From positions 1-30,678 of the IMG/VR virus record IMGVR_UViG_3300021182_000386: a DNA stretch of 30,678 nt, one strand, 5' to 3'. Every line of letters begins with the position of its first letter. Position 1 is the stretch's first letter. The translations under genes were made by a program, and so were the position numbers. The DNA is from a virus. Positions 2,447-30,678 of this stretch are shown piece after piece. Under the pieces are notes generated by a model. It was not told where the DNA came from. It worked only from the letters and a program-made list of their open reading frames with translations, and did not search any database.

Positions 2447-4672
2447 TTATTTAATCAGCAACATCTTTTTCGTATTTATATAATTTCCTGCATGAAGCTG
2501 ATAAAAGTATACACCGCTTGAAAGTGCTCTGCCGTCTGATGAAAGTTGAGAGTTAAAATTGATCTTATAAATCCCCATTTGTTGCTCCTTATTAACAAGC
2601 ACAGCTACTTCCCTGCCAAGAATATCATAAATTTTTAATTGAACTTTACTGGTTGACGGAATCTGATAACTAATAATTGTACTTGGGTTAAATGGATTTG
2701 GATAATTATTAAACAATTCAAAATGGTCGGGAAGCGATGCTGATTGTTTTACAGACGTTGCCGTTTGATCTGCAACAATAATTGGTCTTATCCTGAAATT
2801 ATAATTTGATTTGATTCCCCATCCGTTTCCGTCATTATTATTCCTTGACGACCGGAGATTTAGTAAAGGACTGCTATTATCGACAAAAAAGCCAGTTGCA
2901 TTCCCGGAAGTAAAATAAACTACTATTTGATAATCCTTTCCTCCCGTGACCTTAACTTTCGTGCCGGTCAAATCAACATAGTTCCAGGAAAATAAAGTTA
3001 TATTGGACGAATTTAAGTTTACGGTATTGCCGATTTTTGTTCCAGGTAAACCATTTGAGTCAGACCAGACTTCAAAATATAGAGGACCTGAAATATTGTT
3101 TGTTACATATGAATGGAACATTACACCTGTAACCTGTCCTGATGAGGCCGGAGAAAATCTGACTGCTATCGGCTGATTTGGAGAGACATTTGTATATGCA
3201 TCACTACCCCATTGATCATAAGCAAAAATTGAATAATTTTTCTGAATCTGATTAACTAAATTTGCCATTGCATTAAATACATTCATTTTTCCATAACCCC
3301 ATTGAGGATTTGGAAGAGATCCTGTATAACTGTCGGAAGAAGAACTGCCGGTCAGATAAGATTTTATTTGTGCTGCATTGAGACCGGAATTTTGTTGAAA
3401 TAGTAAAGCAACGGCACCGCTGGTTACTGCACTTGACATACTAGTTCCCTGTTCAATCATATATCTGTTTCCGGGCATTACCCATGATGCGCTGATATTT
3501 ACTGCTGTAGAAGATTTTACCGAAACAACCGCCTCACCGGGCGAAGACAAATCAGGTTTCTGCATGCCGTCTCTTCTTGGACCAACACTGCTGAATGAAC
3601 AAATATTATCAGAACCGTCGGTACCTACATATGACAAACTCTGCAATGATGCATCTTCCCATCTCCATTTAGTAGCGAAAGCTCCTGAAGTAATTACTGT
3701 TGAAGCACTGCCGGGTGAATCGATGCAATATTTAGAATCGCCGTTTACTAGACTTGCTCCTATCGAACTGTCAAAAAGCCAGCCATGATAAATCATTGAA
3801 TTTTGTGAATTATTTGTAACAGTCAAGTTCCAAGTTCCTACTGCAGGATTATGATTACTTCCGTTGCTCACATATAAGTAAACTTCTCTGTTATTATTCT
3901 CAGTATAAACCTGATCATAGACATAAACAGTTCCATCTGTTGTTTCAACTGATGCATTTCCTGCCGATGTTGAATTTACAATTTTATTGTTAGGTGAAGT
4001 TACTTTACTTGAAACAGCTCCATTGGTGCTGAACCATAGATCAAAACCAAAAAAATTATTATTTACACCCATTACAGGTGTATAAGTAGGAACAGAGAAC
4101 GAAAAATTTACTGCGGCTGAATTTGCTATTGAACCCGTAATGTGTGCATTTGTGCCGTTTTCATTACCTGCTGCTGCACATACTGCTCTTCCTGCTCCTC
4201 CGTTAACAAAACTGTCAACAACTTCATCAAGCGCATCAGTACCATCATTAGGTCCTTCAAGTCCTCCAAAACTCATATTTACAACAATCGGTTCGCTAAG
4301 CTGTTTAGAAATTGCTGCTGCATAAGTTAATCCGTCAATAATAGAGTTATTAGAGAATGTACTGTCCCCAGCTTTAATAATTAAAAGATCAGCATCAGGT
4401 GCCATACCGGCATATTTTCCATTTGAAGCAGCGCCGTTACCAGAAGCACTACCAGCTGTATGGGAACCATGTCCAAAAACATCCTTCTCTCTGACAAAAC
4501 CGGAAGTGGATTTATTCAATTCCCCGTTGATATTGCTGTTTGAATATTCAACTCCGTAATTTAACCCCGACAAATTAACAGCATCCCGGTCTTGCGGACT
4601 TTTTTCACTTCCTTGTTTATTTAAAGTCTGATCCCAGATATAAACTACTCTGCTCTTTGTAGTATCTGTCAT
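2447..4672 (-). CDS. S8 (subtilisin-like) serine protease with T9SS sorting domain, 5'-truncated
   Basis: Secreted subtilase of 741 residues as readable. The catalytic His is H68 in GHGSHTAG, the oxyanion Asn is N170 in AAGNENG and the nucleophile is S411 in GTSMSSAV. The C-terminal 90 residues carry FNNYPNPFNPST, KIYDILGREV and GVYFYQL, a type A sorting domain for the type IX secretion system, so the protein would be exported and anchored or released at the cell surface. There is no signal peptide, and the catalytic Asp motif (D-[ST]-G-[IV]) normally found just before a TTKSRVVYIWDQT-like stretch is absent; the in-frame codon six before the ATG is already a stop (TGA). I infer that the gene was cut at about 4672-4690 by phage insertion and is probably inactive. 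The family call is firm; the cause of truncation is inference. Confidence 0.9.
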   Translation of the reverse strand: MTDTTKSRVVYIWDQTLNKQGSEKSPQDRDAVNLSGLNYGVEYSNSNINGELNKSTSGFVREKDVFGHGSHTAGSASGNGAASNGKYAGMAPDADLLIIKAGDSTFSNNSIIDGLTYAAAISKQLSEPIVVNMSFGGLEGPNDGTDALDEVVDSFVNGGAGRAVCAAAGNENGTNAHITGSIANSAAVNFSFSVPTYTPVMGVNNNFFGFDLWFSTNGAVSSKVTSPNNKIVNSTSAGNASVETTDGTVYVYDQVYTENNNREVYLYVSNGSNHNPAVGTWNLTVTNNSQNSMIYHGWLFDSSIGASLVNGDSKYCIDSPGSASTVITSGAFATKWRWEDASLQSLSYVGTDGSDNICSFSSVGPRRDGMQKPDLSSPGEAVVSVKSSTAVNISASWVMPGNRYMIEQGTSMSSAVTSGAVALLFQQNSGLNAAQIKSYLTGSSSSDSYTGSLPNPQWGYGKMNVFNAMANLVNQIQKNYSIFAYDQWGSDAYTNVSPNQPIAVRFSPASSGQVTGVMFHSYVTNNISGPLYFEVWSDSNGLPGTKIGNTVNLNSSNITLFSWNYVDLTGTKVKVTGGKDYQIVVYFTSGNATGFFVDNSSPLLNLRSSRNNNDGNGWGIKSNYNFRIRPIIVADQTATSVKQSASLPDHFELFNNYPNPFNPSTIISYQIPSTSKVQLKIYDILGREVAVLVNKEQQMGIYKINFNSQLSSDGRALSSGVYFYQLHAGNYINTKKMLLIK

Positions 4673-4830
4673 GCTTCTTATAACCGATCACGGATTTTGA
4701 GAAATATTCCCAAATAGAATGAGAAATCTTAGATAACATATCTTTTTGCGATTTCGGACAAAATGGCAGACTGGAATTACCCCCTATTAATAAACTATTA
4801 ACGAACCATTAATGGCGGCTCAAAATGGCA
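4673..4830. other. Probable host/phage junction with short repeats
   Basis: Gene-free stretch between the truncated protease and the last phage gene. It holds the 10-mer CAAAATGGCA twice in direct orientation (4759-4768 and 4821-4830), GAGAAAT twice (4699-4705 and 4721-4727), a perfect palindrome CCATTAATGG (4806-4815) and several ATTAA words. Repeated transposase-binding sites of this kind are expected at the ends of transposable phages, whose termini start with TG; a TG lies at 4672-4673, exactly where the protease frame starts to break down. The exact phage end cannot be fixed because the opposite end is not visible. Confidence 0.45.
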
Positions 4831-5064
4831 TTAAACGATAAATGAATCTAAACCCAAAGTCGCTAATTTTGCTTTGACTTCGGGAATAGTTCCCTTAAAT
4901 AGTTCGTTTGAACTGTCAGTTTGAGTATTACCGGAAACATCATTGAAATTCACAGATTGTGAAAGGCTTATGTTAAATTTACCATCCGGTGTTGTAGTAG
5001 CATTAATGCTAAGGTTAAAACTTTTTGTCCCTGTTGCTGGAATGGTTGCTAAATCAAGTTGCAT
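4831..5064 (-). CDS. Hypothetical phage protein, 77 aa
   Basis: Not recognised. A small protein with alternating polar and hydrophobic residues in its first 50 positions (SFNLSINAT, KFNISLSQSVNF) that look like beta strands, followed by a helical C-terminus (EVKAKLATLGLDSFIV). It is the last gene of the leftward block, 39 bases after the preceding gene, and the closest phage gene to the junction. Genes in this position are often accessory. The reading frame is plausible in codon content but no function can be given. Confidence 0.6.
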   Translation of the reverse strand: MQLDLATIPATGTKSFNLSINATTTPDGKFNISLSQSVNFNDVSGNTQTDSSNELFKGTIPEVKAKLATLGLDSFIV

Positions 5065-5103
5065 GTTACACCTAAAATTATTGATGACGTTTAAATGTTA
5101 TAG

Positions 5104-5526
5104 TTAATTGGATAAAGTTAGTCCGAAGTCAACCTTCAATAATCTAATCGGAGTTTTGATAGATTCCTTAAAAGTTTCATACTCAACCCGGTCCGGATCT
5201 GTGGTTGTTAAATCCCTCATTTTTAGTTCACGACCGATTGAATAACGTTCTGCAATTTGATCTTCGATTATTGTATCGAAATCTTTCATCATGCGGCAAT
5301 TATCAAGTATTGGTTTAATTGCTTCAAAAGTTAATTCGGTTGCCTCTATCTCGGCAGATTGAGCAGCAAGAAAAGCAGTTACATCATCTGTTTCCACTCC
5401 GAAATAATTAACATCACCATCAGTCTGATAATGAATTAATTTTTCTTGATTTATTGCTCGAAGCGATAAGGTTGTATTATCTTTTACAACTTCCTTAGCA
5501 CTGAAATATTTCACGGTAAACCTCAC
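5104..5526 (-). CDS. Hypothetical phage protein, 140 aa, overlapping the DGR reverse transcriptase
   Basis: Not recognised. A soluble 140-residue protein with an acidic middle and no membrane segment. Its start overlaps the end of the reverse transcriptase gene by 32 bases in another frame, so the two are probably translationally coupled. It ends 39 bases before the next small gene. No DGR accessory family other than Avd is expected here, so it may be a DGR-linked factor or an unrelated accessory protein. The overlap with the RT is the only contextual clue. Confidence 0.7.
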   Translation of the reverse strand: MRFTVKYFSAKEVVKDNTTLSLRAINQEKLIHYQTDGDVNYFGVETDDVTAFLAAQSAEIEATELTFEAIKPILDNCRMMKDFDTIIEDQIAERYSIGRELKMRDLTTTDPDRVEYETFKESIKTPIRLLKVDFGLTLSN

Positions 5527-6529
5527 TTTTATTATTTTTAATCAACCATTCACTTATAAACTCTCCATATCCTTCTGCAACTTTTAATATCTGCCGGACA
5601 ACATATAAGAGAGAATTTGTACGTTTCGAATGAGATAAATAAGAAGCAATGCGACTCATATCGGGATGTTTCTTTATAACTCGTTTTAATTTATAAAGCG
5701 ATCTCTTTCTAATTAATCGACTATTGTACCAAGTTCTGTAACCAACAAAATCAACACCGGATTTAATTTGAGCGATTTGTGTTTTGCTATTAGCTTCAAG
5801 TTTTAGACCATTCAACATAACCTTAATATATCTCAATACTCTTTTCAATTCTTCTTTTGTTTCACCGAGTATTACAAAATCATCCATATACCGCAAATAA
5901 TGTTTTCTTTTTAAATATCGTTTTATTAAATGATCAACCGGGTTAAGCATTAAGTTTGCAAGTACTTGTGAGGTTACATTACCAAGAGGCAGTCCGACTC
6001 CTGCTTCATTTTCATAAAACTTTTTAAGCAATCCGAGAGTAGGTTCACATTTAATAACTTTTCTTAATAGTTGTTCCATAACCTTATGATTAATCGAATA
6101 AAAGAACTTTGATATATCCACTTTTAGATAATATCCAGATCCTTTATAATTGACCAGGTACTTCTTAAGCAAGTCACTGGCCCGGTGTGTACCCTTTTCT
6201 CTTCTGCAGGCATAAGATGTATCAATAAATCTTGCCTCTATAATATCCCGGATAGAATTAAGAACTGCATGTTGAACAATCCGATCCTCAATGTGAGGAG
6301 CTTCAATTAATCTTTCTTTTGGATCGTAAACATAAAAAGCTCTTGCTGGTTTTATTTTGAAAGTACCGTCTTCAAGAGAGATAAGGATTCTGTTAAGGTT
6401 GGTTACTAATTCACTTTCGAACAGAAGAATATTGTGATGATAATTTTTGTTTTTCTTTACTTCCTGAAACGCTGCGAGAAGAGCTTCATAGGAACACCAT
6501 TTTTCTTTTAAGTTCCCAACTCTTTTCAT
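5495..6529 (-). CDS. Diversity-generating retroelement reverse transcriptase
   Basis: Reverse transcriptase of 344 residues that copies the template-repeat RNA into cDNA with errors at adenines. Palm motifs are visible in order: YLKVDISKFF (catalytic D138), GLPLGNVTSQ (residues 179-188; the SQ where group II intron RTs have QG is characteristic of DGR RTs), RYMDDFVIL (YMDD, residues 214-217) and VDFVGYRTW (motif 7). There is no maturase or endonuclease domain, and length fits DGR RTs. It lies directly downstream of the template repeat and Avd, in the same direction as the target gene. Retron and abortive-infection RTs are excluded by the paired TR/VR repeats. Confidence 0.96.
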   Translation of the reverse strand: MKRVGNLKEKWCSYEALLAAFQEVKKNKNYHHNILLFESELVTNLNRILISLEDGTFKIKPARAFYVYDPKERLIEAPHIEDRIVQHAVLNSIRDIIEARFIDTSYACRREKGTHRASDLLKKYLVNYKGSGYYLKVDISKFFYSINHKVMEQLLRKVIKCEPTLGLLKKFYENEAGVGLPLGNVTSQVLANLMLNPVDHLIKRYLKRKHYLRYMDDFVILGETKEELKRVLRYIKVMLNGLKLEANSKTQIAQIKSGVDFVGYRTWYNSRLIRKRSLYKLKRVIKKHPDMSRIASYLSHSKRTNSLLYVVRQILKVAEGYGEFISEWLIKNNKSEVYREIFQC

Positions 6530-6814
6530 TTTAATTGTCCTAAATAATCAGAAGTTCTTTCCATACTGGAAATACTATAATTATTATTCAGTTGCATTTT
6601 TGCCGATTGAGACAAGGATAAAGCTCCCTTTGATTAACATTCATCTAAATTGCCTTAGCAGTTTAGTTCTCAAGATTATCAGAGTCACGCGCGAGCGGAC
6701 ACATTTCTATTAGAATTAGTGCGATTATTATTCAGATTGACATTCCACGCACCGGCATTATTAGTATTATTCCAATTGCCGCCAACAAGAACGCACACAG
6801 TATCAAGCTTTACC
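6530..6814 (-). ncRNA. DGR template RNA region (Avd-RT spacer)
   Basis: The 285-base gap between avd and the RT gene contains no convincing coding frame and carries the template repeat. In studied DGRs the RNA copied by the RT spans the TR and flanking spacer sequence, where the downstream spacer helps prime cDNA synthesis. About 156 bases lie between the TR and the RT start, enough for such a primer/structure region. The RNA boundaries are inferred from position only. Confidence 0.6.
6686..6797 (-). repeat. DGR template repeat (TR)
   Basis: A 112-base segment that aligns without gaps to 7241-7352. On the coding strand it has 30 adenines and would encode an Asn-rich peptide (NWNNTNNAGAWNVNLNNN), the AAY-rich design typical of TRs because Asn codons can mutate to many residues without creating stops. 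It begins 18 bases after the avd stop codon and ends at the GC-rich block TGTGTCCGCTCGCGCGTG. Twelve differences from the VR all lie at TR adenines. Confidence 0.97.
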
Positions 6815-7165
6815 CTACTGTTCATCTTTACCGAGTTCCGTTTTAATCCAAGCACCGATCATCTTACCAACTTCATCTATCATTGTTTGTGAAATACGAT
6901 GTTTCTGTGAATCAATATATTTCAGTTCAAAAGCAAGATTCACAAATTGACGTAACATCTCATGCTTTACGTTTAGATCCGAAAATGTTGTTTTCTTATG
7001 AAACTTTTTATTAATCGTTATGGCGGCTTCAAATATCTCATAATTAAGTTCCCTTATTTTATTTGCGAGTAAATATTTTTCATGTTTTGGAAATTGTTTG
7101 AGCATGATGTTATTATAAACAATCATCTCTCTAATCTTTTTTACAATAAGTAAGTATTCTGCCAT
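6815..7165 (-). CDS. avd: DGR accessory variability determinant (Avd-like)
   Basis: A small basic, wholly helical protein of 116 residues. Avd forms a barrel-like pentamer of four-helix bundles that binds nucleic acid and the RT and is needed for mutagenic retrohoming. Features matching the family are the FPKHEKYLLANKIREL segment (the family has PK-x-E-x-x-x-L near the first helix turn), heptad-like helices through the middle, and a C-terminal GKMIGAWIK resembling the family's G-x-x-[IL]-G-[GA]-W. It sits between the target gene (62 bases upstream) and the TR (18 bases downstream), the usual place. Confidence 0.9.
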   Translation of the reverse strand: MAEYLLIVKKIREMIVYNNIMLKQFPKHEKYLLANKIRELNYEIFEAAITINKKFHKKTTFSDLNVKHEMLRQFVNLAFELKYIDSQKHRISQTMIDEVGKMIGAWIKTELGKDEQ

Positions 7166-7201
7166 AAAATATTTTTCCGAACGGTTTTAAATTTATTTCA
7201 T

Positions 7202-7254
7202 TCCGCTCGTTATCACTCGCTCCACATCTAAACACGAAGGCACGCGCGAGCGGA
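7202..7254. repeat. Inverted repeat bracketing the VR 3' end
   Basis: The arms TCCGCTCG (7202-7209) and CGAGCGGA (7247-7254) are perfect 8-base inverted repeats separated by 37 bases that include the target gene's stop codon. One arm lies inside the GC-rich 3' end of the VR, the other downstream of the gene; the TR has only the first arm. In Bordetella phage BPP-1 a hairpin/cruciform just after the VR promotes retrohoming. The long loop here makes the equivalence uncertain. Confidence 0.4.
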
Positions 7255-8943
7255 CACAAAGCTATAAGAACTAGTGCGAGTATTATACAGATTGACAATC
7301 CACGCACCGGCATAATTAGTATCACCCCAATTGCCGCCAACAAGAACGCACAGTTCGTTACGGATGAACTTAGAAAACATGTCCTGTCCATAAAGATTAC
7401 TACCTGATGACGAGATTGCATTCCGGTCTTTTGGTAATCCTAATGATGACAATTTGTAAGCGGCAGACGTTCTGTCGGTAGTCGTACTCATTACAGTATT
7501 ATTTCCGTTTCCAAATCTATCACTATAAAGTCCATTTATCAAAAGATCCGATATATCAATCACATCAAAATTAGCAGTAAAACCGGCTGCACCCCAGTGA
7601 TCAGTATTTAGAGAATTTCCAGATGTAATAGTTTTTATATCAACACTTTCCTTAAGGATTCCAAATGAACCTGTCACGGCAGAAAAACCATTACCTGTGT
7701 AATCAGCAGTTAAAGCAGAGGTGTTAACATAAGCGTTATTGTTTACATCATTGGTTCTTCTTTTTAGATAAAATGTATCTGCAGTAATTACTTCAACCGT
7801 AAAGTTGTAATATTCTAATAGATTATTCCATTCCGTTGTGCTTGAACCGTCTATCATTTTTACATCACCGGTTGAATAACCATGTGCTGTAATAGTAAAT
7901 ACAGCTTGAGCCGCTCTTGTAATAGCTGTTATTGTTTTTGATGTAGCGACACAAACCATTCCAGGTGCAATTTTATATTGATTACCATTTATATCAGCCA
8001 CTCCACACAATTGACCATTATGTGTAGTCATAGCTATATTATTCGCACCTCCTGTTTTTCTGGCTTCATTTCTTCCCGCCCAGTAAGCATCAGTGCAAAC
8101 AGAAAAAGTTACTGAGCTATCATTATAATCGGCGCCGTAATTATTATTTCCTTTGGGAAAATTCTTTACACCGGTTGAATCATACCAGGCACAAAACGAT
8201 GTTGAGGTGGCAGCTTGTCCGTGAGCTTTCGATAATCGAGCAAGTGCTGTATAACCGAATTTCAAGACAGGAGTAAAATTATTTCCTCTGCTTTTTGCAA
8301 CTTTGAAAACATCGCCATATATATTTGTTGGCGATTGCCCGTTACTCTTACAATTAGCAAAACTGCCAGCAAAGTTATTTGAAGCGTCTCTTTGTGTATC
8401 AACTGCAGACGATATTGGATTACCATTAATTATGGAAGAAGCAATTCCTGTACTTCCATTTACAAAATTCGTTAAAGACCAATCAACTTTATCGTAGAAT
8501 ATTCCACTACCGATTACTCCACCATTGATAAAGTCACGTTCAACAACATAACCATCCGCTGCAGCTCCATCAATACTATAGCCATAATCCTTGAATGATT
8601 TTGTGTAAGTTAAATTATTAACTTCTTTATAAACGTATACGGGGACATAAACCATTACTGAGCCGTCAATTGTGCTTACGTAATTCCCATAATTTGCACT
8701 ACCTCTATTTGTGTAATCAGACATTCCAATTAAATAAACAGGGAGTAATGCAGCGGGACAAATACCTACACCAAAACCAATATCTCCTGCATTTCCGATA
8801 TTGTTATCTTCAATCGACATTATCTGATTTTTCATATCTCCAAATGCAATCTGAAATGTTTGATCTGGATTAGTTCTATCCAAAGGAAACATATCAGTTA
8901 ATTGTAGAGACGTTGTTTTAGTTTGATCTTTTATTCGTGACAT
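7228..8943 (-). CDS. DGR variable target protein, receptor-binding candidate with C-type-lectin-like C-terminus
   Basis: A 571-residue protein whose last 40 residues hold the variable repeat. The C-terminal wording (LCVLVGGNWGDTNYAGAWIV then SARACLRV) matches the formylglycine-enzyme-like C-type lectin fold of DGR targets, in which G-G-[NS]-W and a terminal R-A-x-L-R-x frame the variable binding site. Residues near 335-420 form a domain with HGYSTGDVKMIDG that also occurs in the giant tip protein. It is encoded among tail-fibre genes, 4 bases after the 234-residue gene upstream, so it likely sits at the tail tip and binds host surface molecules, like Mtd of BPP-1. The N-terminal part is not recognised. 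Confidence 0.93.
   Translation of the reverse strand: MSRIKDQTKTTSLQLTDMFPLDRTNPDQTFQIAFGDMKNQIMSIEDNNIGNAGDIGFGVGICPAALLPVYLIGMSDYTNRGSANYGNYVSTIDGSVMVYVPVYVYKEVNNLTYTKSFKDYGYSIDGAAADGYVVERDFINGGVIGSGIFYDKVDWSLTNFVNGSTGIASSIINGNPISSAVDTQRDASNNFAGSFANCKSNGQSPTNIYGDVFKVAKSRGNNFTPVLKFGYTALARLSKAHGQAATSTSFCAWYDSTGVKNFPKGNNNYGADYNDSSVTFSVCTDAYWAGRNEARKTGGANNIAMTTHNGQLCGVADINGNQYKIAPGMVCVATSKTITAITRAAQAVFTITAHGYSTGDVKMIDGSSTTEWNNLLEYYNFTVEVITADTFYLKRRTNDVNNNAYVNTSALTADYTGNGFSAVTGSFGILKESVDIKTITSGNSLNTDHWGAAGFTANFDVIDISDLLINGLYSDRFGNGNNTVMSTTTDRTSAAYKLSSLGLPKDRNAISSSGSNLYGQDMFSKFIRNELCVLVGGNWGDTNYAGAWIVNLYNTRTSSYSFVSARACLRV
7241..7352 (-). repeat. DGR variable repeat (VR)
   Basis: This 112-base segment lies at the 3' end of the target gene and ends 10 bases before the stop codon. 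It matches the TR at all 82 non-adenine positions and at 18 of 30 adenine positions. Substitutions on the + strand are at 7259, 7260, 7261, 7266, 7271, 7280, 7287, 7298, 7314, 7323, 7325 and 7326. They change ten codons, for example Asn to Gly, Asp, Tyr, Ile, Thr, Ser and Phe. The last 18 coding bases, GC-rich and identical to the TR, are the likely initiation-of-mutagenic-homology segment. Confidence 0.97.
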
Positions 8944-8947
8944 AATT

Positions 8948-9652
8948 TTATTCCTTGAATTTTATGATAATACAATCCCACCAACCTATGCGCTTCATTA
9001 TTAGAGAATTAAGATCGGCGTTATAGTTTATTTTGGCGTCAATGTTGCGATAGGCTTCTAACGTAGCATTCAAATTATTTGTATTCAATATTTCAGCAGT
9101 AATATACCGTTCTCTATTTTGTGTCCCGGTTATTAAAACAGAATATCCAATTTCGGAATTCATAATGATATGGTGTGCAACCTCGGCTGTAATAGAAATA
9201 CTATTGCTTATCACTGAATTAATTAATCTATGTAATTGTGCCGCAGCATTAATATCAAAAATGATTCTGAATCCATTCTCCGGCAAAAAGTATATTGGTT
9301 CACTAAGGTGATTTGTAATTTGGTTCCCAAGATGATTTGTAAAAACAAATCCGGGATCTCGTCCAAAATCATTCATCTTAATTTCTTTTGTTTGTATCCC
9401 TGTTTGTTGCTGAAGAAATGAAGTAAGAACACTAGATCCATATTCTTTAGTAACCATCGGTGATATAGTAAATTGATAAAAACATGAAGTATTCGATCCG
9501 AATTCTTTCGTGATTGCAGAGATTCCACCGGATTGGATTGATAGATTCGATGTGATAATCTTATCAATCGCGCCACTTTGGAGAAACTGAATATTATTAG
9601 ATAGATGATCTAGTATTTCAATTCCAAGATGATTTGTGAAATTTACTAACAT
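8948..9652 (-). CDS. Putative tail tip/fibre adaptor with internal repeat, 234 aa
   Basis: Not recognised as a known family. The protein contains a partial internal duplication: FTNHLGIEILDHLSNNIQFL at the start and FTNHLGNQITNHLSEPIYFL near residue 110. The rest is rich in Ile, Asn and Ser with strand-like alternation. It ends 4 bases before the DGR target gene and begins 2 bases after a tail-fibre gene, so it is co-translated with both. By context it could connect the variable protein to the tail, an inference only. Confidence 0.75.
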   Translation of the reverse strand: MLVNFTNHLGIEILDHLSNNIQFLQSGAIDKIITSNLSIQSGGISAITKEFGSNTSCFYQFTISPMVTKEYGSSVLTSFLQQQTGIQTKEIKMNDFGRDPGFVFTNHLGNQITNHLSEPIYFLPENGFRIIFDINAAAQLHRLINSVISNSISITAEVAHHIIMNSEIGYSVLITGTQNRERYITAEILNTNNLNATLEAYRNIDAKINYNADLNSLIMKRIGWWDCIIIKFKE

Positions 9653-9654
9653 TC

Positions 9655-10062
9655 TTAATCTACCGTAAAGACAAGTGAATTAACTTCGAATACCGGTCTA
9701 TCACCAACGTTATAAGTTTTAGCCGTTCCAAGTACACCAAAAGCATACATATTTCCAGCCGTCAATGCGTCGAATAAAGCAACATGAGTAATCACGTTTG
9801 TGCCGCTCGTTGCAGTCGGGAAACGTACTTCAGTATTATTTTTTATTGTCGCGCTTCCATCATCAGCGGCATTTGAAAAATTTGTTTTGTTATTCACGAA
9901 AGGCTGACGAGCATAAGCGCCATAATTTGCTTCAACAATTGACCCATCTTCACCAGGTTGAGCCGTTGCAAGAGCAATGTAAAAAGTGCCTGGAGGAGTA
10001 AAATCCGCAGCTCCAAATAACTTATCGTTTACTTTTTTCTCTGCCAAGTTTGTTAGTGACAT
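9655..10062 (-). CDS. Small phage tail-fibre-type protein, 135 aa
   Basis: Resembles a widespread family of small phage structural proteins that start with a helix (MSLTNLAEKKVNDKLFG), continue with a P-x-x-x-Y-x-A-L strand (PPGTFYIALATAQPGEDGS), a YGAYARQPF turn, and an N-x-x-x-x-x-F-P-x-A motif (NNTEVRFPTATSG), then a VTHVALFDA-like segment. Such proteins are encoded beside tail fibres in many phages and are annotated as tail fibre or tail-associated proteins. It has a strong ribosome-binding site (AAAGGAG, 8 bases before the ATG). Its exact place in the virion is unknown. Confidence 0.75.
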   Translation of the reverse strand: MSLTNLAEKKVNDKLFGAADFTPPGTFYIALATAQPGEDGSIVEANYGAYARQPFVNNKTNFSNAADDGSATIKNNTEVRFPTATSGTNVITHVALFDALTAGNMYAFGVLGTAKTYNVGDRPVFEVNSLVFTVD

Positions 10063-29803: not shown

Positions 29804-30678
29804 TGGAAAATCCGAACAAATACTTTCTCCCTTATCAGATTCGCTGGCTTGAAGATAAGTCAAGAGTAAAGATTTGGGAGAAGTCCAGACGTATTGGAGC
29901 TACATACGTTCAATCTTATGAAGATGTTGAAGATTGTATAAGCAGAAAAAAATTTGCTGTTTGGTTTTCTTCAGCCGACGAATCCGCTGCAAAAGAATAT
30001 ATTCTTTATTGTGAGCAATGGGCAAAATTATATGACATTGCAGCTAAGTCGCTTGGTGAAATTGTTATCGATAAAGAAAAAGATATTAAAGCCCTTGCGA
30101 TAGAATTCAAAAACGGTTCAAGGATTCATGCGTTAACTTCCAATCCAAAAAGATTCCGGTCAAAAGGTGGTAAAATAATTCTTGATGAATTCGCTCATCA
30201 TGAAGACCAGGCTGCAATGTGGAAGGCAGCTAAACCTTCAGCTACCTGGGGTTATGATATAAGAATTCTTTCGACACATAACGGCAAACAATCTCTCTTC
30301 TTTAAATTCATTGAAAAGATAAAAAAGAAAAAACTGAATTGGTCTTTACACACAACGAGTATTTTTACTGCAGTTAAGGAAGGACTATTATATAAAATAT
30401 TCAGCAGAAAACTATCAAAGAAAGAAGAACAGGATTGGCTTGATCAGGAAAAACAGGATTGTTTTGATGATATAACATGGCTGGAAGAATATTGTTGTGA
30501 GGCTCAGGATGAAGGAGATGAAGCAAATTACATTGCCAAAACAATAAAAAGGACGGCAGACGATTACAATAAATTTGCAGTTTTGGATCGGACAAACGCC
30601 CAATCCCGTGCGCTTGAAGAAGCTTGCATCGCACACGCTATTCCTTATAGAATCTATGGCGGCTTAAAATTCTATGAT
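29803..30678 (+). CDS. Large terminase N-terminal part joined in frame to UvrD helicase
   Basis: The ATG overlaps the methyltransferase stop by 1 base. Residues 1 to about 233 are a Mu gp28-type packaging ATPase: KSRRIGATY near residue 27 is the Walker A-like loop, IILDEFAHHED (125-135) is Walker B, and WLEEYCCEAQDE is the end of the ATPase domain as in gp28-type proteins. From about residue 237 the frame continues as text typical of UvrD/PcrA (DEANYIAKTIK, then RTNAQSRALEEAC and YRIYGGLKFYD), a DNA helicase domain 2A segment. The nuclease domain of the terminase is absent. The frame runs off the window. One base change (LYRTNA to LDRTNA) also departs from the UvrD norm. Confidence 0.8.
   Translation, partial: MENPNKYFLPYQIRWLEDKSRVKIWEKSRRIGATYVQSYEDVEDCISRKKFAVWFSSADESAAKEYILYCEQWAKLYDIAAKSLGEIVIDKEKDIKALAIEFKNGSRIHALTSNPKRFRSKGGKIILDEFAHHEDQAAMWKAAKPSATWGYDIRILSTHNGKQSLFFKFIEKIKKKKLNWSLHTTSIFTAVKEGLLYKIFSRKLSKKEEQDWLDQEKQDCFDDITWLEEYCCEAQDEGDEANYIAKTIKRTADDYNKFAVLDRTNAQSRALEEACIAHAIPYRIYGGLKFYD

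Follow-up and report, generated by a model that had tools for sequence, protein, structure and literature searches.

The system closest in description to the locus considered here is the diversity-generating retroelement (DGR) of Bordetella phage BPP-1, whose published scheme places a motif that ends reverse transcription at the 3' terminus of avd (PMC12875486). A further DGR, with a template repeat (TR) and a variable repeat (VR) of 117 bp, is known from the Bacteroides hankyphage, a Mu-like transposable siphovirus (PMC6199706). The stretch analysed here, called the window, comprises 30,678 nucleotides of viral DNA (IMG/VR record IMGVR_UViG_3300021182_000386, positions 1 to 30,678). The analyses revealed that the target gene, avd, the TR and a reverse transcriptase (RT) gene follow one another in transcription order on the minus strand within positions 5495-8943, and that all open reading frames of the cassette are intact. 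We are highly confident that this region is a complete BPP-1-type DGR in a tailed phage that is most likely Mu-like and transposable. A complete DGR with its parts in this order on one strand had been proposed in the initial annotation; every part was recovered at its place on the minus strand, and the order matches the BPP-1 layout. The identical cassette layout was also seen in dozens of other loci.

The RT gene (5495..6529, minus strand) encodes a protein of 344 amino acids, which matched RVT_1 (E 7e-27) and the reverse transcriptase family PHROG 1423 (4e-105) and contains the motif GLPLGNVTSQ together with the catalytic YMDD. Its closest relative of solved structure is the BPP-1 bRT (8ub7, E 3e-52). 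A maximum likelihood tree of 68 RTs, with group II intron RTs as outgroup, placed the window RT inside the DGR clade, in agreement with the type assigned to it in the initial annotation, and next to the RT of locus L059 as its sister (support 99/91). Both belong to a five-member clade (100/100) whose loci carry the same cassette, and the four group II intron RTs formed a separate group (100/100). The avd gene (6815..7165, minus strand) encodes an accessory variability determinant of 116 amino acids, with matches to bAvd (1e-23) and to the Avd family PHROG 3206 (5e-32); against NF033474 (DivGenRetAVD) it scored 96.3 bits, above the curated cut-off of 80.

The TR (6683..6797, minus strand) is 115 bp long, contains 13 AAY codons and is 89% identical to the VR of the same length (7238..7352, minus strand). 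The VR covers codons 531-569 of the 571-residue target, stops 10 bp short of the end of the gene and closes in a GC-rich stretch resembling an initiation of mutagenic homing (IMH) site, TCCGCTCGCGCGTGC. All 13 mismatches between the repeats lie at TR adenines (six A>T, four A>G and three A>C), a bias with a chance probability of about 4e-9 (hypergeometric; 31 adenines in the 115 TR bases). The thirteenth mismatch, TR 6685 A versus VR 7240 C, gives an in-frame TGA in the TR and TGC in the VR; L059 shows the same difference, which therefore probably distinguishes IMH* from IMH at the boundary in a fixed manner and is not a product of mutagenesis, which leaves 12 changes as mutagenesis products. 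Randomisation of the adenines in the 13 AAT/AAC codons of the TR cannot produce a stop codon, and none of the VR changes created one. No further copy of TR or VR was found within the record.

A helix that closes the TR was first proposed by RNAalifold on five close relatives. Its 12-bp stem joins a 5' arm, AGGGUAAAGCUU (6805..6816, minus strand), which begins inside the avd stop codon just upstream of the TR, to a 3' arm, GAGCUUUAUCCU (6615..6626, minus strand), in the spacer between TR and RT. Covariation was examined in a structure-blind alignment of 35 DGRs; the helix had been suggested by five of these rows, and the remaining 30 constitute an independent test. Across the alignment, pairing was retained in 97.4% of cells, with both sides changed in 125 cells, and the covariation score was 0.81, compared to 0.25 for shuffles and no more than 0.22 after sliding; two pairs are invariant, one of them a G-U. 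The covariation thus establishes the helix as a conserved RNA structure of these DGRs. Outside this group, a comparable helix is in place in 12 of 24 further DGR loci, some of which are near-copies of one another, against 6% of swapped pairs, and BPP-1 has an 8-bp version in the same place. Another BPP-1 pairing, of 15 bp and lying 70-55 bases upstream of its TR, was discarded, because the best of the shuffles scored equally and the site does not coincide with the conserved position. The Rfam RT-14 model does not include the helix, and the literature searched contained no description of it; it may already be described in the cryo-electron microscopy work on BPP-1. By analogy with that phage, a paired 5' arm at the end of avd would fit the stop motif of the published scheme. 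We propose, tentatively and with the odds somewhat against it, that the helix is a general, conserved part of the DGR template RNA acting as its 5' boundary, both as a cDNA stop and as a clamp of the template.

The 3' arm of the helix belongs to a structured, RT-14-like spacer RNA (6541..6684, minus strand), along the full length of which Rfam RF02921 aligns; the spacer of a relative (L003) exceeds the cut-off of that model. Downstream of the VR, a hairpin of the form GCGAGT-GATA-ACGAGC (7205..7220, minus strand), with a GATA loop and tandem G.A mismatches, occupies the position that corresponds to perfect hairpins in the relatives and in BPP-1; no compact perfect hairpin was found behind the VR in the window. 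A looser CCGCTCG/CGAGCGG pairing folded no better than shuffles (z -1.2) and was dropped in favour of the GATA-loop hairpin, which is backed by the relatives.

The target gene (7228..8943, minus strand), with the VR at its 3' end, belongs to a family of 268 loci in viral contigs. Sequence search gave no match to a known fold. Structures were modelled with AlphaFold using 30-31 relatives, and the predicted fold of the target resembles that of TaqVP, the variable protein of a Thermus aquaticus DGR (5vf4, E 6e-9; mean predicted local distance difference test score 76), with residues 1-44 at the N-terminus modelled poorly. The model of a homologue without insertion matched TaqVP more closely (E 7e-13), followed by weaker matches to Mtd variants and PvdO. 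The C-type lectin fold expected in the initial annotation is thus what the model predicts, and the target is probably a receptor-binding protein of the tail, by analogy with other phage DGRs. The adjacent region (8948..10062, minus strand) is a tail-fibre region of two genes, of which 9655-10062 matches fibre gp80 (PF23140, 5.6e-32). The DGR does lie beside tail-fibre genes as had been noted, and this neighbourhood speaks for the proposed host-binding function as probable.

Further analyses revealed a domain of about 100 residues inserted in the predicted lectin fold (7660..7959, minus strand; target residues about 329-428). Its predicted fold resembles the FCCH domain of E1 enzymes, and it matched no Pfam family. 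The insert is 41% identical to residues 272-364 of the large tail protein of the same phage (11361-16499). The sister phage locus L080 lacks it, as do L053, L054 and L055, and in most relatives it is 85-100 residues long. Separately, proteins annotated as hypothetical in large Campylobacter phages (CP21, CP220 and others) match only the first half of the target, residues 51-330.

Taken together with what is known of BPP-1, from which the biochemistry, receptor binding and the functions assigned to helix and hairpin are carried over, these parts suggest the following mechanism. The avd-TR-RT transcript would fold, the 12-bp helix joining the 5' flank of the TR, at the avd stop codon, to the spacer RNA; RT and Avd, bound to the spacer, would then reverse-transcribe the TR and misread its adenines. 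The GC-rich 3' end of the VR and the hairpin behind it would direct the resulting cDNA to replace the 3'-terminal VR of the 571-residue target gene. The TR has no hairpin and differs at the boundary, and therefore would not be overwritten. As the expected outcome, the binding face of a protein with the C-type lectin fold, probably located on the tail, would be randomised, which would change the host receptor that is bound.

Variation of the VR, which the initial annotation had put forward as a check on the DGR, was followed in related cassettes with near-identical backbones, and there the VRs do vary. Between L086 and L105, the VR differed at 20 of 113 positions, all at TR adenines, with 1 difference in 1656 positions of the rest; between L115 and L117, it differed at 21 of 112 (19 at A), with 3 in 1641 elsewhere; and between L018 and L033, at 23 of 125 (21 at A), with 0 in 1705. 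The TR showed no difference in any of the three pairs. A constant TR accompanied by VR changes at TR adenines is, from these comparisons, the signature of working DGRs in the relatives, and by extension the window element would be active as well.

The relatives also differ in the presence of the cassette. In L058 (5698-6486) and L076, avd is 88% identical, and 28 bases downstream of it begins the gene that otherwise comes after the RT; both records lack TR and RT at this place and yielded no RT at any other, a state that represents either a clean loss of TR and RT or the condition before their gain. In the window, this following gene is a small phage gene (5104..5526, minus strand) that overlaps the 3' end of the RT gene and stands outside the DGR mechanism. 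Its homologues bound the cassette downstream in relatives, lying after the RT in L056, L059, L060 and L061 and directly after avd in L058 and L076. In L057 (5623-5973), a gene with a GIY-YIG nuclease domain (PF01541, 9e-15) replaces avd, TR and RT behind a target of the same family.

Several observations weigh against reading the region as a complete DGR in its phage. The window phage is known from a single copy with one VR state, and an exact search of viral contigs with the 26-base conserved 5' block of TR and VR found none. The spacer scored 44.0 bits against RF02921 (E 5.7e-5), under the gathering cut-off of 48.1, and the GATA-loop hairpin is imperfect and, in the window alone, weak and not significant. 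L058 and L076 keep target and avd without an RT, so the cassette is not indispensable. These two loci, which lost or never had TR and RT and still carry avd and the target, and the single VR state in the record would also suit a DGR that diversified its VR in the past and is now frozen, with RT and avd as relics. Such a state is improbable here, given the intact reading frames and the catalytic YMDD, the retention of the TR, the RNA helix and the hairpin, the lack of any stop codon among the VR changes and the 12 changes that are still legible at TR adenines.

An assignment of the RT to a different class (group II intron, retron or defence RT), with repeats unrelated to it, deserves next to no credence. 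Generic RT models match the protein too, though below their cut-offs (TIGR04416 with 154 bits where 300 are required, Drt and retron models by a wide margin), but the placement of the RT inside the DGRs, the presence of Avd and the adenine-only mismatches rule out a non-DGR RT, and the VR moreover sits in a lectin-fold gene with the same layout across dozens of loci. It is unlikely, though less so than a frozen element, that the DGR diversifies something besides host range, such as an anti-receptor decoy or a protein displayed by the lysogen. The tie between target and tail rests on analogy, the N-terminal 44 residues are poorly modelled, and some DGR targets have unknown ligands (PMC10743442); against this, the target comes after a tail-fibre gene where the late operon ends, and DGR targets encoded by phages are mostly structural, host-attachment proteins (PMC8144416). 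A complete DGR directed at a probable receptor-binding protein is thus the preferred interpretation.

Regarding the carrier, a sister contig of 41.7 kb (G001, which contains locus L080) has a capsid 94% identical to that of the window and syntenic genes between 10.4 and 30.5 kb, mostly at 80-84% nucleotide identity; part of the large tail protein is more divergent. It encodes a Mu-type transposase, a neighbouring AAA protein, GemA, the Mu portal and Mu F. The window itself contains the Mu gp36 and gp37 families and a tape measure, no tail sheath was found in it, and it ends before the transposase/portal region of the sister. Since these Mu genes occur in a sister with a 94% identical capsid, the window phage is most likely, on gene content, Mu-like and transposable, with a non-contractile tail. 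The initial annotation had described a siphovirus with Mu/lambda-mosaic head genes and considered it an uncommon carrier for a DGR. That view is not supported, the sister being Mu-like and the hankyphage providing a precedent (PMC6199706). The complete DGR, the BPP-1 order and the probable receptor-binding target with a predicted lectin fold are supported.

The sister contig ends inside its own VR (L080 5389), as would fit an assembly broken by VR variants. At the right end of the window, the open reading frame of the terminase large subunit (30521-30678) switches in frame to a UvrD/PcrA helicase after AQDEGD, while the terminase of the sister continues normally; the last ~160 bases are a chimeric join that most likely arose during assembly. 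At the left end, a gene for an S8 protease with a type IX secretion system (T9SS) sorting domain lacks its 5' part and a signal peptide, with stops just upstream (4672-4830), so that the junction between phage and host probably lies here and may reflect a Mu-like insertion into the protease gene. The 10-base sequence CAAAATGGCA is repeated at 4759 and 4821, and comparison of window 4560-5110 with the start of the sister contig for shared phage ends gave only chance-length matches. Host flank content is limited to UvrA and the T9SS-sorted S8 protease, at one end, and since the contig contains one chimera, prophage status and host class, put by the initial annotation as a prophage of an Ignavibacteria-type host, should not rest on the left junction alone.

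Compared to BPP-1 (mtd-avd-TR-brt), the window element shares the gene order, the Avd, a TR between avd and RT and a VR at the 3' end of the target, and its RT is 36% identical to bRT. Both systems also have a gene overlapping the 3' end of the RT gene and a TR-closing helix, of 8 bp in BPP-1, and the imperfect window hairpin past the VR is a candidate counterpart, by position, of the BPP-1 hairpin. They differ in the target, which is Mtd in BPP-1 and of the TaqVP type with an inserted domain here, in the tandem G.A mismatches of the window hairpin, and in the carrier, as BPP-1 integrates at a tRNA and the window phage is Mu-like. The overall fold of TaqVP resembles that predicted for the target (template modelling scores 0.51/0.59, for the insert-free homologue) at about 17% identity, and TaqVP lacks the FCCH-like insertion. 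The hankyphage is likened by description, and it was absent from the top capsid and target matches listed. Rfam RT-14 (RF02921) covers the spacer from the end of the TR to the start of the RT; as the model begins after the TR, its conserved AAAGGGA...UCCU block has no 5' partner there, whereas here this block pairs with the 5' flank of the TR. Among more than 30,000 known DGRs (PMC8144416), the window element is one more example, and the TR-closing helix and the variation among related loci are worth more: related phages with and without the FCCH-like insert, and with a DGR, without TR and RT, or with avd-TR-RT replaced by a GIY-YIG gene, offer natural experiments on the gain, freezing and exchange of diversifying cassettes in phages, and the helix provides a directly testable candidate boundary element for cDNA synthesis in DGRs far beyond BPP-1.

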